33,019 nt of DNA, taken from Thermoplasmata archaeon (lineage in GTDB: Archaea; Thermoplasmatota; Thermoplasmata; Methanomassiliicoccales; Methanomethylophilaceae). Positions within the stretch are counted from its first letter, which is position 1. Each line of letters opens with the position of its first letter. Position numbers and translations under genes: made by a program. Below, in pieces: positions 9,015 through 33,019 of this stretch. The notes beneath the pieces were generated by a model. The model saw nothing but the letters and a program-made list of their open reading frames with translations, made no database searches and had not been told where the DNA came from. The stretch lies in NCBI GenBank assembly GCA_015063165.1, contig SUSZ01000029.1, forward strand, positions 1-33,019, written 5' to 3'.

Positions 9015-10226
9015 ATGGCAAGAAGATCCCCACCAGATCCCGAATCCGAAGCCGATAGGAAGGCGAAGATCGTCATCGTTCTGGGAAACGGGAGCGACGA
9101 TCCCAACGCGATACGTTTCAGGAGGCTCGTTAAATCCGGCTGGACCGTCCCTGAGAGCGACGAGCAGGCCGTCGAGTAGTACACGAGATGCGGAGAGTTG
9201 GGTTTCGCGGATGCGGACGCCCTGCTGGCCTACATGTATCTCGTCGGCGCCGGCGTCGAGGTCGACGAGTCGATGGCTGCTCATTACTTCCAGAGTGCAG
9301 CCCTCAAGGGAGACGTGTATTCACAGTAGTCCATCGGAAACCTGTACAACTGGGGCGTCGGAGTCGAGAGGTCCTACACGAGCGCGCTCAGATGGTACAG
9401 GCTCGGCGCCGAATCCGGAGAACCTATCTGCCTGAGGAACATCGGCTACTTCTACGAGAAGGGACAGGCGGTCCCCCAGTCTTACGAAGAGGCCATCGAA
9501 TGGTACAAGAGAGCCAGCGACAACGGCGACGGATGGTCCGCCAGCCAGATCGGCCTCCTGTACGAGAAGGGGCTGGGCGTAGAGAAGTCCTGCGAGACGG
9601 CTGCCAAATGGTTCGAGCGCGGCGCAGAGATGGGATACGTGTGGGCCCAGTCGAAGATGGGATTCGCTTATGAGCACGGCACCGGCGTCCCGAAATCCCC
9701 GGAACAGGCTGCCAAATGGTATCACATGGCCGCTTCGCAGGGCCATGCCATATCGGAATACAAGATCGGACAGTGCTACGAGAGGGGCATCGGAGTGCCT
9801 CGCATCCTGGTAGAGGCTCTGAGATGGTACAGGAGCTCCGCCGAGCATGGGAACGCCACAGGCCAGAGGCTTCTGGCCGAGATGTACGAGTTCGGGAAAG
9901 GGGTCGAGAAATCCTACGAGACCGCCGCAGAATGGCATGCCAAAGCTGCGGAACAAGGCGACCAATGGTCGCAGATGCATCTGGCCGAGCTCTACTACCG
10001 CGGAAGAGGCGTGGAGAGGTCTTATGAGGAGGCGGCGAGGCTGTACGCTCTGTCTGCCGAGCAGGGCAACGCGTTCTCCCAGTTCAGCCTAGGCTACATG
10101 TACGAGAAGGGCATCGGCGTCGTGGCCTCCATGGAGAGGGCGATGGAGCTCTACCGCTCTGCCGCGAAGCAGGGGGACAAGAACGCCATCGCCGCTCTGG
10201 AGAGGCTGGAAGGACCCGTCACTTGA
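9015..10226 (+). CDS. Sel1-repeat protein with two in-frame TAG codons
   Basis: A 403-codon frame of about ten Sel1-like (TPR-related) repeats of ~36 residues, each with a core like LGYMYEKGIGV followed by A-x-x-W-Y. Sel1 proteins are solenoid scaffolds for protein-protein interaction. Two TAG codons lie in frame: 9177-9179 (codon 55, where other repeats have W/Y/H after A-x-E/K) and 9327-9329 (codon 105, at the variable site before SIGNLY). Sequence on both sides keeps the repeat register, without frameshift. TAG may be decoded, as pyrrolysine in Pyl archaea, or both are nonsense mutations. The first third would be lost if translation began at an internal ATG such as 9630. The end overlaps the convergent transglutaminase gene by eight bases. 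Confidence 0.75.
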
Positions 10227-18242: not shown

Positions 18243-19435
18243 GGTCGACGTCTTCTCCTGTGAGTCCTCATATGCTCGGCGATCGAACGTATGGTGTCCC
18301 TGTCCACGGATTCTCTGTTCAGCGTGTCCAGATCATACCTCTTGCGTATCGATTCCAGCTTCTCCTCGACAGCGCTGCCGTTCTCCGCGATGCCCATCAG
18401 GGAGTCCAGCGTCCTCTGCTTGGGATCCTGCCTGACCAGGTTGTACACGTACACCCCGATGCGTCTTACGGGGCGGAAAGGAATCTCGTCCAAGATGGAC
18501 ATGGCGGATTCGTGCAGCTCGACCGGATCGCGGCACATCTTCATCATCTTGTTCGAACCGAACGGCTCCCTGCCGCTGTACGCTCCCGCGACCCCTATCC
18601 CGTTGCCGAACTTGCCGTATCCTTCCAGGACGTTCGCTATGTCCACGCATACAAGGAAGACGACGTCCGACAGCAGCCAGTAGTCGTCGATGTCCTTGAG
18701 GAATGTCAGGCTTCTGCTTATCGATTTGGCGTCCTCCGGGATGCGCGGGGTCACCGGCCTCATATCGATGCCGTCGGCAAGATCGATGATCCTCTTGGCT
18801 TGCGACCCCAATATGCTGGCGACTTCGGCTCTGTTCTCGCGGACGTCCCTCACGGTCCTGATCCCGTGGCAGCCGAGCTTCTCCGAAGTCCTTGGGCCGA
18901 TGGAGTTGACCTCGCCTATGTCGCGATCCTTCATAAGGTCCACGAAATCATCAGGCGACAGTATCTCGAAGTATCCGTTAGGCTTCAACTCCTCGCTGCC
19001 GGTCTTGGCGGACACCATGTTGTATCCGAGGCCGACCGAGCATCCCATCCCCATCTCCTCGAGGACGCGACGCTGTATCTCGTGGGCGAAGCGTCTGGCT
19101 TCATCCAAGTCGCGGGCCGTGTTGGTGACGTCAAGGTAAGCCTCGTCCAGCATGACCGGCTCCATGATATCGGTGTACTCGGACCAGAGCCGGTGCAGCT
19201 CCTCGGAGACGGCGCGGTACTTCCTCAGGTCGCCGTTAATGAACACAGCGGATGGGCAAAGGCGTCTGGCCTCGGACACGGACATGCCCGAATGAAGGCC
19301 CATCTCCCTGGCTGGATAGTTGCAAGTTCCAACTACCTGGACCTGATCCGCCGGCGAGAGAATCGCAACCGGCCTGTTCTTGAGCGAGGGGTCCTCCCTC
19401 ATCTCCACCGAGGCGTAGTAGCAGTCCATGTCCAC
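18116..19435 (-). CDS. dinB: DNA polymerase IV (Y family, DinB/Dpo4-like)
   Basis: A Y-family translesion polymerase. It shows VDMDCYYASVEMREDP (first catalytic Asp), the N-terminal GTCNYPAREMGLHSGMSVSEARRLCP, the second catalytic motif in MLDEAYLDVT, a helix-hairpin-helix (IGEVNSIGPRTSEKLGCHGI) and the little finger domain. The listed start is GTG at 19435, which truncates the first strand (IIIH precedes VDMD). No ATG, GTG or TTG lies in frame between it and the promoter, so CTG or another rare start is possible. The basic C-terminus HMRTHRRRRRP is the probable natural end; the remaining ~40 residues run antisense to the PemK-like gene. Confidence 0.88.
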   Translation of the reverse strand: MDMDCYYASVEMREDPSLKNRPVAILSPADQVQVVGTCNYPAREMGLHSGMSVSEARRLCPSAVFINGDLRKYRAVSEELHRLWSEYTDIMEPVMLDEAYLDVTNTARDLDEARRFAHEIQRRVLEEMGMGCSVGLGYNMVSAKTGSEELKPNGYFEILSPDDFVDLMKDRDIGEVNSIGPRTSEKLGCHGIRTVRDVRENRAEVASILGSQAKRIIDLADGIDMRPVTPRIPEDAKSISRSLTFLKDIDDYWLLSDVVFLVCVDIANVLEGYGKFGNGIGVAGAYSGREPFGSNKMMKMCRDPVELHESAMSILDEIPFRPVRRIGVYVYNLVRQDPKQRTLDSLMGIAENGSAVEEKLESIRKRYDLDTLNRESVDRDTIRSIAEHMRTHRRRRRPYSLNFSLSYLDSVPSFLTRWVLWMVRTSLSTKVSFSRPASM

Positions 19436-19498
19436 GTGGATTATGATCCGGTCCAGATTATCGCCTCGACAAGTGATGCTGTTCTGATTGATGTCTCG

Positions 19499-19507
19499 TA
19501 TATAAAT
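19499..19507 (+). promoter_or_regulatory. TATA box before acetyltransferase gene
   Basis: TATATAAAT on the plus strand predicts initiation near 19530. Read on the minus strand the same AT core (ATTTATATA) is placed to serve the divergent DNA polymerase IV gene. Confidence 0.45.
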
Positions 19508-19620
19508 CGGGTACGAAGGGGGACTGGAGCGAAAGTGGCATTATGCAGGTTTCGTCTTTTCATACCTCGCCTCCTTCTCCTTTCGTTACAGATAATAAGC
19601 TTCAAACCATATCGGGAGGC

Positions 19621-20199
19621 ATGTCGGACCCCTCTCTGAAAGTGCTTCTAGATAAGTTCGCCGCCGGCGAGAAGATATCATACGACGACCCCATTTTCAA
19701 GCTGCTGGATACTTATGCTGCGGAAGCTCAGAAGGTCACCGCCGAGATCAATTCGGGATATCACGACCAGGAGGAGCTGAAGGCCCTCATGGGCCGTCTG
19801 ATCGGCAAAGAGATGCCCGAGAGGTTCATGCTGTTCCCTCCTATCTATGTAGATTTCGGCAAGAACATAACACTTGGGGAAGGGATCTTCATCAATTCCG
19901 GATGCTGCTTCCAGGACCAGGGCGGAGTACGCATAGGTGACGGGTGCCAAATCGGCCACCAGGTCGTGTTCGCCACCATAGACCATGATATGGATCCGGA
20001 CCATCGCCACGACGTCATGGCTTCTGAGATTGTCCTGGAAAGCAACGTCTGGGTGGGCTCCCATGCCACGATTCTGAGGGGAGTCACCGTCGGACATGAC
20101 TCCATCGTAGCTGCAGGTGCGGTGGTCACACACGACGTTCCGCCCCGCACCGTCGTCGCCGGAGTGCCGGCCAGAGTGGTCAAGAGGATAGACGATTGA
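19621..20199 (+). CDS. Maltose/galactoside O-acetyltransferase-like hexapeptide transferase
   Basis: About 192 residues: an N-terminal maltose-acetyltransferase-type cap (LIGKEMPERFMLFPPIYVDFGKNITLGEGIFINSGC), then left-handed beta-helix repeats of the hexapeptide family (IGDGCQIGH, VWVGSHATILRGVTVGHDSIVAAGAVVTHDVPPRTVVAGVPARVVKRI). The active-site histidine is in ATIDHDMDPDHR. It transfers acetyl from acetyl-CoA to a sugar or similar hydroxyl; the acceptor is unknown. The ATG at 19621 is chosen because conserved sequence starts there, though an in-frame ATG at 19543 lies closer to the predicted transcript start. Confidence 0.85.
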   Translation: MSDPSLKVLLDKFAAGEKISYDDPIFKLLDTYAAEAQKVTAEINSGYHDQEELKALMGRLIGKEMPERFMLFPPIYVDFGKNITLGEGIFINSGCCFQDQGGVRIGDGCQIGHQVVFATIDHDMDPDHRHDVMASEIVLESNVWVGSHATILRGVTVGHDSIVAAGAVVTHDVPPRTVVAGVPARVVKRIDD

Positions 20200-20224
20200 T
20201 GGGGCTCATGCTGCCGCTTTCTTG

Positions 20225-20380
20225 TCAGCGTTCCTTAGCCGGTCGAATGACGAACACCGGGAAGCGGATGAAGGCGGCGATGAAGGACGCGTGCCCGAAT
20301 ACAGGCGCCAGGTCCAGCTCCGGCCGCAGCACTATCGACGACATGGATGACGTGTAGAGGATAGCAAAGTATGGATCCAT
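20225..20380 (-). CDS. Small hydrophobic protein or gene remnant
   Basis: A 51-residue frame beginning MDPYFAILYTSSMSSIVLRP after ACGGAG, with a hydrophobic segment and a basic end (RPAKER). I recognise no family. Codon use looks like real genes nearby, so it may be a small membrane protein or the remains of a larger gene. Confidence 0.25.
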   Translation of the reverse strand: MDPYFAILYTSSMSSIVLRPELDLAPVFGHASFIAAFIRFPVFVIRPAKER

Positions 20381-20467
20381 ACTCCGTCGTGTCGAAGCTT
20401 TCAGGTATGGACTAGATCGAATCAATCGCTCGGAGCGGTGCTAGATCGCCCCGGAGCAGAACAAGTT

Positions 20468-20599
20468 TCAGAATTCTCCGATCTGGCGGTCCTTGACGCA
20501 TCCGAATCCGCACTTGGGGCAGACTCCGGCATACATCTGGGAATCGGTCCAGCAGTATCCGCAACAGATGTTGCTGCAGCAATGCTCGTATCTGTACAT
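20468..20599 (-). CDS. Cysteine-rich zinc-ribbon-like small protein
   Basis: A 43-residue frame with nine cysteines: two CC pairs (CCSNICCGYC) followed by CPKCGFGC. CxxC knuckles, ending in CPKCG, are typical of zinc ribbons. It ends at TGA (20468-20470), 14 bases from the TfoX-like stop region on the same strand. No good ribosome-binding site is visible, but the cysteine spacing is hard to explain by chance. Confidence 0.5.
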   Translation of the reverse strand: MYRYEHCCSNICCGYCWTDSQMYAGVCPKCGFGCVKDRQIGEF

Positions 20600-20613
20600 G
20601 GTTGAGAATCGGA

Positions 20614-20988
20614 TTATTCTGTACTTTTATCTTCTGGACGGGTGCAATACATGCATTTTACATGAACAAGGGATGCTGTCCGACGAAGCGATCGCTTGCG
20701 TCTGGGCAGCTCCTTGACCATGGCATCAACGACGTTCCTCAGAAGCTCACCGTCGTACGGTTCTGGGAAGAGTATCATCTCTCCTCCGCCCTCGTAAGGA
20801 AAGTCCGAGGGGAAATCGGCCAGCATCGTGGCGGAAGACTTGGTGATCTTCAGAAGCAGCCTGTTGTCGTAGATCCCGCCGAACAGCACCCTGTCCTTGT
20901 AGAGAAGATATTCCCCCATCATTTTGCGCGAAGTAATCTCCGGCAGAATCTCCTTGACGGACTCCAGGGTCGAGGCGTCGGACGGCAA
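20614..20988 (-). CDS. TfoX N-terminal domain protein
   Basis: A 124-residue protein whose first 100 residues match TfoX_N: SRKMMGEYLLYKDRVLFGGIYDNRLLLKIT, then FPYEGGGEMILFPEPYDGELLRNVVDAM. In bacteria the domain belongs to a competence regulator, but stand-alone members in archaea have unknown function. The last ~20 residues include two cysteines and lie outside the domain. It starts three bases after the stop of the GyrI-like gene, so the two are cotranscribed. Confidence 0.8.
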   Translation of the reverse strand: MPSDASTLESVKEILPEITSRKMMGEYLLYKDRVLFGGIYDNRLLLKITKSSATMLADFPSDFPYEGGGEMILFPEPYDGELLRNVVDAMVKELPRRKRSLRRTASLVHVKCMYCTRPEDKSTE

Positions 20989-20991
20989 ATC

Positions 20992-21444
20992 TCATCCCTT
21001 CACGCCGATATAGATGTGGATCTCGCAATTGTCGGGGTCAGCGTTCTGGTACTCCTCGAAATCGAAGACGAATGTGCGATCGAGGCCCATCTTCCACAGC
21101 TCTTTCCAGAATTCGCCTACCGCCGTCATCATGTTGCCGATGACGACGAACTTCGCATACTTTCCAGCGGGAAGCGTGCGCACATCGAAGCCGTCAGGAA
21201 CATCTCCATCCACGGCGCATCCAGCCATGAACGTGTATTCTCCGTGCTCGTCGCCTTCATAATCGGTGTAGATCCCCATCGTTTTGCCGGTGGTCTTGTT
21301 AGGTATCGAAGAGTATCCTCCTTCCGAGAACAGCCTTTTCCAGGTTCCTCCGATGACGGCTCCCATGTCAGGTGAGGAATTGCTGGTACGGGCTACGAAT
21401 CCAGCAATCATGGTTTCCTTCAGTTCTACCAGCTCGTATTTCAT
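20992..21444 (-). CDS. GyrI-like/effector-binding domain protein
   Basis: A 150-residue stand-alone GyrI-like (AraC effector-binding/SOUL-related) domain: MKYELVELKETMIAGFVART, then IGGTWKRLFSEGGYSSIPNK, MGIYTDYEGDEHGEYTFMAGC, and the terminal DFEEYQNADPDNCEIHIYIGVK with its typical IYI(G/P) ending. Such domains bind small hydrophobic or cationic compounds; some hydrolyse xenobiotics. No DNA-binding part is present. It is first in an operon with the TfoX_N gene, and 10-bp-element array B lies about 60-95 bp upstream. Confidence 0.85.
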   Translation of the reverse strand: MKYELVELKETMIAGFVARTSNSSPDMGAVIGGTWKRLFSEGGYSSIPNKTTGKTMGIYTDYEGDEHGEYTFMAGCAVDGDVPDGFDVRTLPAGKYAKFVVIGNMMTAVGEFWKELWKMGLDRTFVFDFEEYQNADPDNCEIHIYIGVKG

Positions 21445-21502
21445 CAGGAAGGCATCAAGGTCAGAATCTTTAATTGTTGAGGGTCTTTGTTTATCGGTAA
21501 TT

Positions 21503-21540
21503 GATTAGGGCAGATTAGAGCAAAATTATTTGCCCTAATC
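21503..21540. promoter_or_regulatory. 10-bp element array B
   Basis: GATTAGGGCA (21503-21512) is followed directly by GATTAGAGCA (21513-21522) and, after eight bases, by TGCCCTAATC (21531-21540), the exact reverse complement of the first unit. It is upstream of the GyrI-like gene, whose AT-rich promoter (about 21470-21482) lies between, and just beyond the stop of the preceding gene. Confidence 0.7.
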
Positions 21541-21543
21541 AAT

Positions 21544-21960
21544 TCAATGATTTATATCGGGATTTTGGCTGTCCCTCATCATCTGATACAGGGCTTTTTC
21601 TAGCTCACGGTACCCTTTGGGAAAATTTTCCGAACCGCTTGCGCGTATTCTCCTTCCTCCGTTGACCACTGCTGACATGGAGAACATGACCCCGTCCTTG
21701 ACTCCGTAAGGGTGTTTGCCTTGAAAATCGTCCCAATCCATCAAGTTGCATTCATTCAGAAGGTCTATGAACGATCCAGTTTCCTGCTTGAACTTGGCTA
21801 TCGAGTATCCTTCTTCATCTTCCGAAACATAAGGGTTGCTCACTGTAATGGAAACCTCTTGACCTTCGCAGACGGCCTCGTAAAGAAATGCGGAGCGCAT
21901 GGCAGAAATCGTCAGGCTGAAGCATTCGAAAGAATCGACCTTTTCCCTCTCGAAGAACAT
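21544..21960 (-). CDS. Unknown protein, 138 residues
   Basis: A soluble 138-residue protein I do not recognise. It has a strand-rich N-terminal half (ECFSLTISAMRSAFLYEAVCEGQEVSITVSNPYVSEDEEGYSIAKF), a central NECNLMDWDDFQGKHPYGVKDG, and a helical end (GYRELEKALYQMMRDSQ). The stretch after VKDGVMFSMSAVVNGGRRIRASGSENFPKGYREL looks like a ligand- or peptide-recognition fold, but nothing firmer can be said. It lies alone between the CPBP gene and array B. Confidence 0.55.
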   Translation of the reverse strand: MFFEREKVDSFECFSLTISAMRSAFLYEAVCEGQEVSITVSNPYVSEDEEGYSIAKFKQETGSFIDLLNECNLMDWDDFQGKHPYGVKDGVMFSMSAVVNGGRRIRASGSENFPKGYRELEKALYQMMRDSQNPDINH

Positions 21961-22029
21961 GGTTAACCTGTGAAACAGTGCTGTCTGGGGTATTAAAGCC
22001 TCTGTGCTGGGGATTGTCGGTCAACCGCT

Positions 22030-22947
22030 TCAGTCCCACTCCCACATCTCCCTGAGACTTCCTTCGAACGGCTCGTTCAGACTGTTCTTCGGGACGTAGG
22101 ATCTCATTTTGAAGAGCGACCCGGCCGCGAGAACCGCCCCGAGCACGCACATCACCATCAGCGGGATAGTGCCTGCCCCGTCGAAGAATACATCGAAGCA
22201 CGAGATGAGATCGAAGGACGAATGCATCACTATGGTCGCATGGACGCCGTACTGGATATACACGTAGCCGAATAGCATCCCGGAGATGAAAGTGTCCGGA
22301 AACTTCATGATGCTCCATCCGTCCAAATGCATCAGTCCGAACACCACTGAGGACAATATAAGGAATGCCAGAGCCGTTCTGCTCATCCCGAATCCGCCCA
22401 GCATGTTCTTGGCGCATCTAGGATGTCCTTTCAGCAGACAGACCAGCGCGACAGGAAGACCTATGAGCAGCATGCGGCAGAGGAACTCCTATTCGGGTCC
22501 GGCGCACATCATGCAGACCATCAACTCGTAATCTGTCATCCCGGAGAGAAAGTCCTCCGTGTTGCTTTCCCCTATCAGATCAGACAGCAATATGACAGCA
22601 ACACTGGTGAATGCGGTGATAGAGAACAGCATCCCCGCCTTGCTTACAGGTGCCATCATGAAGCGGGCGTCTTTCTCGTCGTCTGGACAACCGCTCATCC
22701 TCTTCGACAAGTCCTTGATGAGCAGTGCGAGGCATATGACGAAGACCGCTGCACAGATGAGCGGATACGTAACACCCAAGGAGTCGTCGCCGCTCGTGAG
22801 TATATAAGCCTCTCTGGGCGCTGCCGCGACTAGGTAGACCAAGGAAATCACGGAAGCCGCCATCATTATTGCAACGGATATCCGCGTGCAGACGACGTAC
22901 AGCTTATTGTTAGGGTCTCTGAGATCAATACTCATTCGCATCGACAC
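22030..22947 (-). CDS. CPBP-family intramembrane protease with in-frame TAG
   Basis: A 305-codon membrane protein of the CPBP (CAAX prenyl protease 2/Rce1-like, PF02517) family: several transmembrane segments, then motif 1 read as TAG-E154-F-L-C-R158, motif 2 FGLMH207, and motif 3 H242SSFD246. The TAG at 22489-22491 is codon 153, exactly the first glutamate of the expected EExxxR motif; GAG to TAG is one base change. All other catalytic residues and the frame remain intact. Either amber is decoded or this is a fresh nonsense mutation. CPBP proteins process prenylated or peptide substrates in the membrane. It is downstream of the ClC gene with a 57-bp gap. Confidence 0.78.
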
Positions 22948-23004
22948 TTCTATCGAAACCGAACAGGCTCATATCTGTTGCTGACAGAACATTCGGATTT
23001 GTCG

Positions 23005-24348
23005 TCAGGTCGAGACTTCGTCTTCGTATGCGACAGGAGCGGGACCGCTTCTCCCGTCCACCAATCTGGCAATCCAGCCTCCGATTACTGCGGCTACGAA
23101 GATCCAGAAAACCATGCGGAACGGGAAGCAGAGAAGCAGCAGCATCGTGACAGCCAGTGGCTTCTTCATCTGGGCTCCGAGCGTGGCTGCTGTCAGCACA
23201 CCAGCAGCGAACGCCACATGGCTGAACGAATCCGGGAACAACAGCATGGACATTCCCATCCCGAGGCAAGAACATGCGAAGATCAGCGGGAAGAAGTGTC
23301 CCCCTTTCAGGCCGAAGCGAAGGCAGAACGCCGTCATGAGGACTTTCAGCACGCATAGTCCCATCAAAGCCCACGCTCCAAGCCCTCCGAATCCGCCTAT
23401 GAGCTCCGCCATCTGATCTTCGCCCGAGAACATCGCCATCGGCACCATCATGCACATGATTCCCACGATGATTCCGCAGAGAGTCTCCTTCAGCACCGAA
23501 GGAACCTTCTCTGCGCCTCTCTGGGCCATATCGCATGATACCTTGTACAGAAGATACACCAGCACCCCGGCGGGAATGTACATCAGAACAGCCGCATAGT
23601 CGATGACAGCGATATCGACCTCCGAGAAGCTTGGGAATCCTTCCAGCGAGGAGTTGAACGCCTGATTTAGACACCATATGACGAGGATGCTGGAACCCGC
23701 GGACAGACAGTAGAGGACAAGCTTCTCCATTCTGGGGAGCCTCGTCCCCTCACCGTCCATCGGAGCCTCCTCGACGGCCAGGATACCGAAGAGAGGCATG
23801 TGGAACAGCTGTCCTAGCGTGGCGGCCTCCCCCAGCTCGGTGAACGTAGATGCGTTCTTCCTTGCGAAGGAGACGTTGTCGCCTATCCAGTAGCACAAGG
23901 CCGCGATTATCCCGGTAAGGCCTGCCTCAGGTCCGACGCTCGCTCCAAGAATCAAAGGGAGCAGGGCGCATGCTAGCATTGGCAGGAAAGGGCGGTAATC
24001 GTAATGCTTCTCCTGCTTGACCTTTCCCAGAACCACGTCCAGTTCATCTGGATAGTCCCCGTAGCGCCTGTGAAGGAGGCCTATGGCGCATCCTCCGATG
24101 GCGCATATTGGAACAGCGATCCATTGTCCTCCAGCGAACGAAGGCGCGAAGTCCCAGATCAGAGAGGTTCCTAGCGATATCGCCTGCAGGAATAGCCAGA
24201 GGACCGTGCCCGCGACCCCTCCGAGCATCACAGCCAGCGCTAGCACAGAGGCCATGTTGCGAGCCCTCGTGCCGCCAGCACCTCCCTTCCCTGGGAACGG
24301 AGTCTTGGAACCATCGTGCGTTCTTTCCTCAGACACTGGATAGGACAT
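23005..24348 (-). CDS. ClC-family chloride channel/transporter
   Basis: A 447-residue polytopic membrane protein of the ClC family. The visible signatures are LGASVGPEAGLTGIIAAL (the GREGP-type region with its glutamate) and LKGGHFFPLIFACSCLG (the GxFxP region), with about ten hydrophobic segments. The N-terminal 30 residues are polar and cytoplasmic. No CBS domains follow, so it is a short prokaryotic type. Whether it works as a channel or an H+/Cl- exchanger cannot be told; no clear proton glutamate was located. The gene is divergent from the substrate-binding protein gene. Confidence 0.85.
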   Translation of the reverse strand: MSYPVSEERTHDGSKTPFPGKGGAGGTRARNMASVLALAVMLGGVAGTVLWLFLQAISLGTSLIWDFAPSFAGGQWIAVPICAIGGCAIGLLHRRYGDYPDELDVVLGKVKQEKHYDYRPFLPMLACALLPLILGASVGPEAGLTGIIAALCYWIGDNVSFARKNASTFTELGEAATLGQLFHMPLFGILAVEEAPMDGEGTRLPRMEKLVLYCLSAGSSILVIWCLNQAFNSSLEGFPSFSEVDIAVIDYAAVLMYIPAGVLVYLLYKVSCDMAQRGAEKVPSVLKETLCGIIVGIMCMMVPMAMFSGEDQMAELIGGFGGLGAWALMGLCVLKVLMTAFCLRFGLKGGHFFPLIFACSCLGMGMSMLLFPDSFSHVAFAAGVLTAATLGAQMKKPLAVTMLLLLCFPFRMVFWIFVAAVIGGWIARLVDGRSGPAPVAYEDEVST

Positions 24349-32626: not shown

Positions 32627-32989
32627 GATGTGGAAGTTTCGCGGACTGAAACGCACCAATCCGTTTGGATGCATTTCACATCTTCTTGAATCCTCTGAGC
32701 ATCCATTTCCTAGTAATCTGGAGAATGAAACCATCGTAACAGGCGCTTTGAAGCAACTTATTTAACAATCGAACGATACAATTTGATTTTTATAATGACA
32801 TACTGTAAAGTTATAAATTCTAAAATGTAAAAAAAAGCGTGGATGGCAGTACAGGAAAACTATTTGCTAATTGGCCCCATCCCTTGACATGGACCCTGAC
32901 CTCGCCACATGATGCCCGAAGGGGTATCTGATCTTCTGTTAGCAGCGAGGTTAAAAGCGCCCCGCCTCAATGCGCAGTTGTGAACCAAA

Positions 32990-33019
32990 CGACATTCAGG
33001 GCAGGGGCATCCGTCCCTA
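32990..33019 (+). ncRNA. Possible RFN (FMN)-riboswitch-like 5' part, cut by edge
   Basis: ATTCAGGGCAGGGG is followed by ATCC and GTCCC, so GGGGC can pair with GTCCC. The run ends TCCCTA at the window edge. FMN riboswitches start TTC(A/G)GGGCAGGG...UCCC(G/U)ACCGGCGGU, and the visible part fits this start. The diagnostic ACCGGCGGU lies outside the window, so this is a guess. Confidence 0.3.

Follow-up and report, generated by a model that had tools for sequence, protein, structure and literature searches.

An in-frame TAG of recent origin at the catalytic glutamate position of a CPBP/Rce1-like protease gene in a methanogen predicted to read UAG as pyrrolysine

Pyrrolysine (Pyl) is a long lysine derivative that carries no carboxylate. 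Wide recoding of UAG to this residue has already been described for the family Methanomethylophilaceae: according to Borrel et al. (2014, PMC4153887), 'Candidatus Methanomethylophilus alvus' uses TAG for 1.6% of its stops and has 16 extra predicted Pyl proteins, including a Sel-1 protein. On the protein side, the reference is MmRce1, a type II CAAX prenyl protease of the CPBP (Abi) family, in which a dyad formed by Glu140 and His173 activates water and in which mutation of either residue severely impairs proteolysis (PMC12067869; also PMC11980579). Here we describe a locus in which the two subjects meet. In a stretch of 33,019 nucleotides from a Thermoplasmata archaeon of this family (contig SUSZ01000029.1 of assembly GCA_015063165.1; hereafter the window), a gene for a CPBP/Rce1-like protease carries a TAG exactly where the EExxxR motif should have its first Glu (GPE-O-EFLCR, in the context AGPE-O-EFLCRMLLIG). 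We consider that this codon probably changes the catalytic base from Glu to pyrrolysine, a missense expected to yield a full-length but inactive protease (rough probability 0.72). The features to which the text refers are the following:

22030 to 22935, minus strand: CPBP/Rce1-like intramembrane protease gene (PF02517), TAG read through, ATG start, TGA stop.
22489 to 22491, minus strand: the TAG codon, codon 149 from the ATG or 153 from the GTG; Glu in 29/29 relatives, GAG in nine close outgroups.
22474 to 22488, minus strand: rest of EExxxR (E150, GAG, to R154, CGC), intact in translation and alignment.
22327 to 22341, minus strand: FGLMH motif with His203 (alignment; PMC12067869).
22210 to 22224, minus strand: HSSFD motif with His238 and Asp242, matching the oxyanion-hole position (HxxxN/D) of Rce1 (alignment; PMC12067869, PMC11980579).
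9015 to 10226, plus strand: Sel1-repeat gene in which codons 55 and 105 are TAG (9177 to 9179 and 9327 to 9329); Sel1 match, E 4.5e-78.

The codon was read directly on the minus strand, the plus strand having CTA at these positions. The read-through frame (305 aa) extends from 22947 (GTG) or 22935 (ATG) to 22033, followed by TGA; the ATG is the more likely start, so that the number 153 given to the codon in the preliminary description holds only if one counts from the GTG, and 149 is to be preferred. Past the TAG the frame runs on for 152 codons, with neither a frameshift nor a second stop, and the read-through translation bears out the earlier statement that the FGLMH and HSSFD motifs are intact (E150 at 22486-22488, R154 at 22474-22476, H203 at 22327-22329, H238 at 22222-22224 and D242 at 22210-22212). 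The PF02517 profile match spans the TAG and scores 37.4 bits against a curated cut-off of 22.4. The family of origin is thus clear, yet by its motifs the window allele is not an intact member: the second E and the R of EExxxR, FxxxH and HxxxN/D are all present, and the catalytic first Glu is absent.

Alignment of orthologues, which the preliminary description had proposed as a check, gave a uniform answer. In 29 relatives with 26-95% identity, the position of the TAG is Glu without exception; the second E, the R and the His of both remaining motifs are likewise invariant (29/29 each), and HxxxN/D ends with D in 26 of them and with N in the other 3. The ten close orthologues, 52-95% identical, align from end to end, the homology continuing past the TAG, and none of them contains a stop; with the open frame beyond the TAG, this is more than chance would give. 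Neither was a stop found at any other of the approximately 118 PF02517 loci of 102 family genomes, the window locus being the sole case, and a conserved TAG at this site was found neither in the orthologues nor at those loci. Viral contigs were also searched for this TAG region, and no further copy turned up. The gene is accessory and patchily distributed: close orthologues occur in 11 of the 102 family genomes. No PDB structure matched the protease by sequence or by profile, and the AlphaFold model computed for the read-through protein and four orthologues, although mostly helical (the Rce1 fold has seven to eight transmembrane helices), was set aside as a structural basis because of its pLDDT of 48; the residue correspondence to Rce1 is accordingly based on the order of the motifs and on membership of the family.

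The change is young. A contig of 5,225 bases, G068:C42 (L084), aligns end to end and without gaps to window positions 18295-23519 with 97.9% identity, and has GAA where the window has TAG, while the nine close outgroups all have GAG (9/9). We infer from this that the ancestral codon was GAG, which changed by G to T on the window lineage and by a silent G to A on that of G068:C42. The presence of GAA in so similar an allele, together with GAG in nine outgroups, indicates that the GAG-to-TAG transversion is recent. We rejected the idea that G068:C42 represents the orthologue of a sister species, since an ungapped identity of 97.9% contrasts with the 55-82% protein identity of the other G068 proteins tested; the better view is of an allele from a near strain, either on a mis-binned contig or acquired by recent transfer. 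With the TAG excluded, the two protease alleles differ at 19 silent and 13 replacement codons, and dN/dS is 0.19, equal before and after the TAG, although most of this divergence may predate it. On the window lineage, some replacements are radical and fall at conserved sites (R94M, I125N, R272G and probably R300W); those on the G068:C42 lineage are milder. This hints at relaxed constraint, although the selection tests on this gene are too weak to separate relaxed from kept constraint; the signs of decay in the gene are weak.

The genome to which the window belongs (2.28 Mb, 99.9% complete) is a fragmented draft of 67 contigs and probably a metagenome assembly. The window ends (32893-33019) in a repeat that broke the assembly: its final 125-128 bases are found again, with 99-100% identity, where C5, C30, C65, C48, C46, C17 and C13 of this genome end. 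The genome contains a tRNA-Pyl(CUA), detected by ARAGORN, in one cluster with PylS, PylB, PylC and PylD, each above the cut-off of its NCBIfam model (TIGR02367, TIGR03910, TIGR03909 and TIGR03911, respectively). Next to the cluster lies a methyltransferase gene whose in-frame TAG is of the canonical MtmB type (it was named from reading its sequence, no NCBIfam model having matched), and one MtmB and one MttB gene, both with their canonical in-frame TAG, lie elsewhere. In a sample of 744 kb (33% of the genome) processed with a simple gene caller, 631 genes ended in TGA (542), TAA (73) or TAG (16, hence at most 2.5%, an upper bound that includes several weak calls). The same sample gave 19 called genes with in-frame TAG, although a few of those with several TAGs, such as L094:113-1129, may be false; by extrapolation, there are perhaps some fifty in-frame TAGs in the genome. 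The organism thus has the tRNA and the enzymes for Pyl, avoids TAG as a stop and uses it as sense. Selenocysteine or another suppressor was set aside as the decoder, given that the codon is UAG and that tRNA-Pyl(CUA) is present.

Two other genes bear on UAG as a sense codon. In the only SMC gene of the genome (L111:4446-8039, minus strand), codon 859 is an in-frame TAG; the site is variable, and the match to the SMC model continues across it from one end to the other. The SMC gene of G074 (L115) has an in-frame TAG of independent origin, at aligned position 817. In each of the two, the codon falls between the hinge and the C-terminal ATPase half. The other is a PHP-domain gene (L094:12830-13480, minus strand, equivalent to G000:C17:32833-33480; also L137-L141), which has one match each in 89 of the 102 family genomes, and which provides the strongest evidence for UAG translation in the clade. 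Its TAG at codon 105 (HGETVVEPV-O-PGTN) is common to six species of the genus, including that of the window, and three other species checked have Ala or Met there. Among the six TAG species, dS ranges over 0.6-1.4 for the whole gene and 0.5-2.0 for its halves, and dN beyond the TAG over 0.06-0.18; since the half beyond the codon stays constrained, the TAG does not act as a terminator there. Codon 105 is possibly a conserved Pyl in an enzyme other than a methyltransferase, close to a conserved motif. Taken together, the complete pylTSBCD set, the rarity of TAG stops, the SMC codon and the six-species PHP codon indicate that this clade treats TAG as a sense codon.

The window itself has a second gene with TAG as sense, the Sel1-repeat gene, which standard calling shortens to 9630-10226, and firm in-frame TAGs were also found in genes for a ThiF-like protein, a nitroreductase and a DUF2099 protein; these three and the SMC codon are all at variable sites. 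In the DUF2099 family, the homologue from a related genus (L128, G014) has its TAG at aligned position 207 and the protein of the window genome (G000) at 168. A large surface-type protein without a Pfam match (L049:4981-7815, minus strand) has two in-frame TAGs, at 195 and 333.

How, then, is the protease codon to be read? It is atypical when compared with those at variable sites, and could reflect an error or a decaying gene. If UAG terminated here, for example because Pyl is scarce, the product would be a fragment of 148 residues without FxxxH and HxxxD, and the gene a young pseudogene. Such a plain nonsense mutation would sit well with a TAG that is unique to the window genome and hits a catalytic site, with the radical changes R94M, I125N and R272G at conserved sites, and with the few percent of genes that TAG may still end; we nevertheless judge it unlikely, for the single-copy SMC gene and the PHP gene of six species require TAG as sense, the protease gene has acquired no frameshift or other stop, and dN/dS does not differ between the parts before and after the codon, with the reservation on the age of that divergence made above. 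We think it quite improbable that the true codon is GAG (Glu) and the TAG an error of sequencing or assembly. The draft character of the assembly and the single base by which TAG departs from the ancestral codon, as reconstructed from nine outgroups, would allow it; against it stand the numerous in-frame TAGs that the genome has in genes clean in other respects, two of them in the same contig, and the fact that base substitutions are less common than indels among consensus errors.

The opposite extreme, that Pyl at this site has been selected for a function, seems very unlikely. Pyl has a reactive imine which serves catalysis in the methylamine methyltransferases, and one could imagine that it replaces the catalytic Glu in a working or altered enzyme, or that the product is a selected pseudoprotease which binds without cutting; the preserved frame and the preservation of all the other motifs would be in keeping with either. 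But Pyl offers no carboxylate to activate water, the TAG is found in no other genome, a near-identical allele has Glu, and selection for Pyl at this site was looked for without any sign of it. One catalytic-site TAG among perhaps fifty in-frame TAGs, and in a patchy accessory gene, needs no special explanation.

The missense reading accommodates these observations as follows. The host is a methanogen of the Methanomethylophilaceae type in which UAG is decoded as pyrrolysine and hardly used as a stop, and in which a single GAG-to-TAG transversion has recently struck a CPBP/Rce1-like membrane protease at its first Glu, the catalytic one. The tRNA-Pyl would read this codon too, an assignment strongly favoured by the genomic evidence, giving a full-length, multi-helix membrane protein with Pyl at position 149. 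By analogy with His173 of MmRce1, His203 would be the His of the catalytic dyad; deprived of its water-activating partner, the protein would be proteolytically dead or nearly so, if Rce1 biochemistry is a guide. Since the catalytic Glu is needed in MmRce1 and Pyl has no carboxylate, a full-length inactive protease is the likeliest outcome, and the activity of the TAG allele is most likely lost. Loss of this activity would be tolerable because the gene is accessory, and the mutation could persist because UAG is sense, an amber change acting as a missense that leaves the protein untruncated. The preliminary description had offered a non-canonical residue in a catalytic site and a fresh null mutation as alternatives; both are probably true together, the change being fresh as was supposed, and the null arising most likely by missense and not by truncation.

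If this is correct, the locus is a natural example of how codon reassignment alters the effect of a mutation: an amber change becomes a missense to pyrrolysine, so that even a catalytic residue may be exchanged while the protein keeps its full length. In practical terms, standard annotation splits or truncates genes of this kind, including the protease, the Sel1 gene of the window and SMC. The SMC and PHP codons make full sense use of UAG in these rumen and gut methanogens a proposition that proteomics can now test. A more recent report is said to describe archaea in which every TAG encodes pyrrolysine; the present argument makes no use of it.

Three known systems come closest to this case. 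(i) The organism belongs to the same order of methanogens as 'Ca. M. alvus' and, like it, has a complete pyl cassette, rarely uses TAG as a stop and has in-frame TAG in many non-methyltransferase genes whose orthologues have ordinary codons; in contrast, the list of Pyl candidates of that species contains no CPBP/CAAX protease, and no case in the available text is described as hitting a catalytic residue (PMC4153887). The protease thus appears to be another instance of the recoding already described for the family. (ii) The protein resembles MmRce1 and the type II CAAX prenyl proteases in its above-cut-off match to PF02517 and in its second E, R, FxxxH and HxxxD; where MmRce1 has its catalytic base Glu140, however, the window protease has TAG. 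(iii) With MtmB and MttB it shares the codon, the genome and presumably the tRNA-Pyl, but in those methyltransferases Pyl is conserved and needed for catalysis, whereas in the protease the TAG belongs to one lineage and occupies the site of a Glu.
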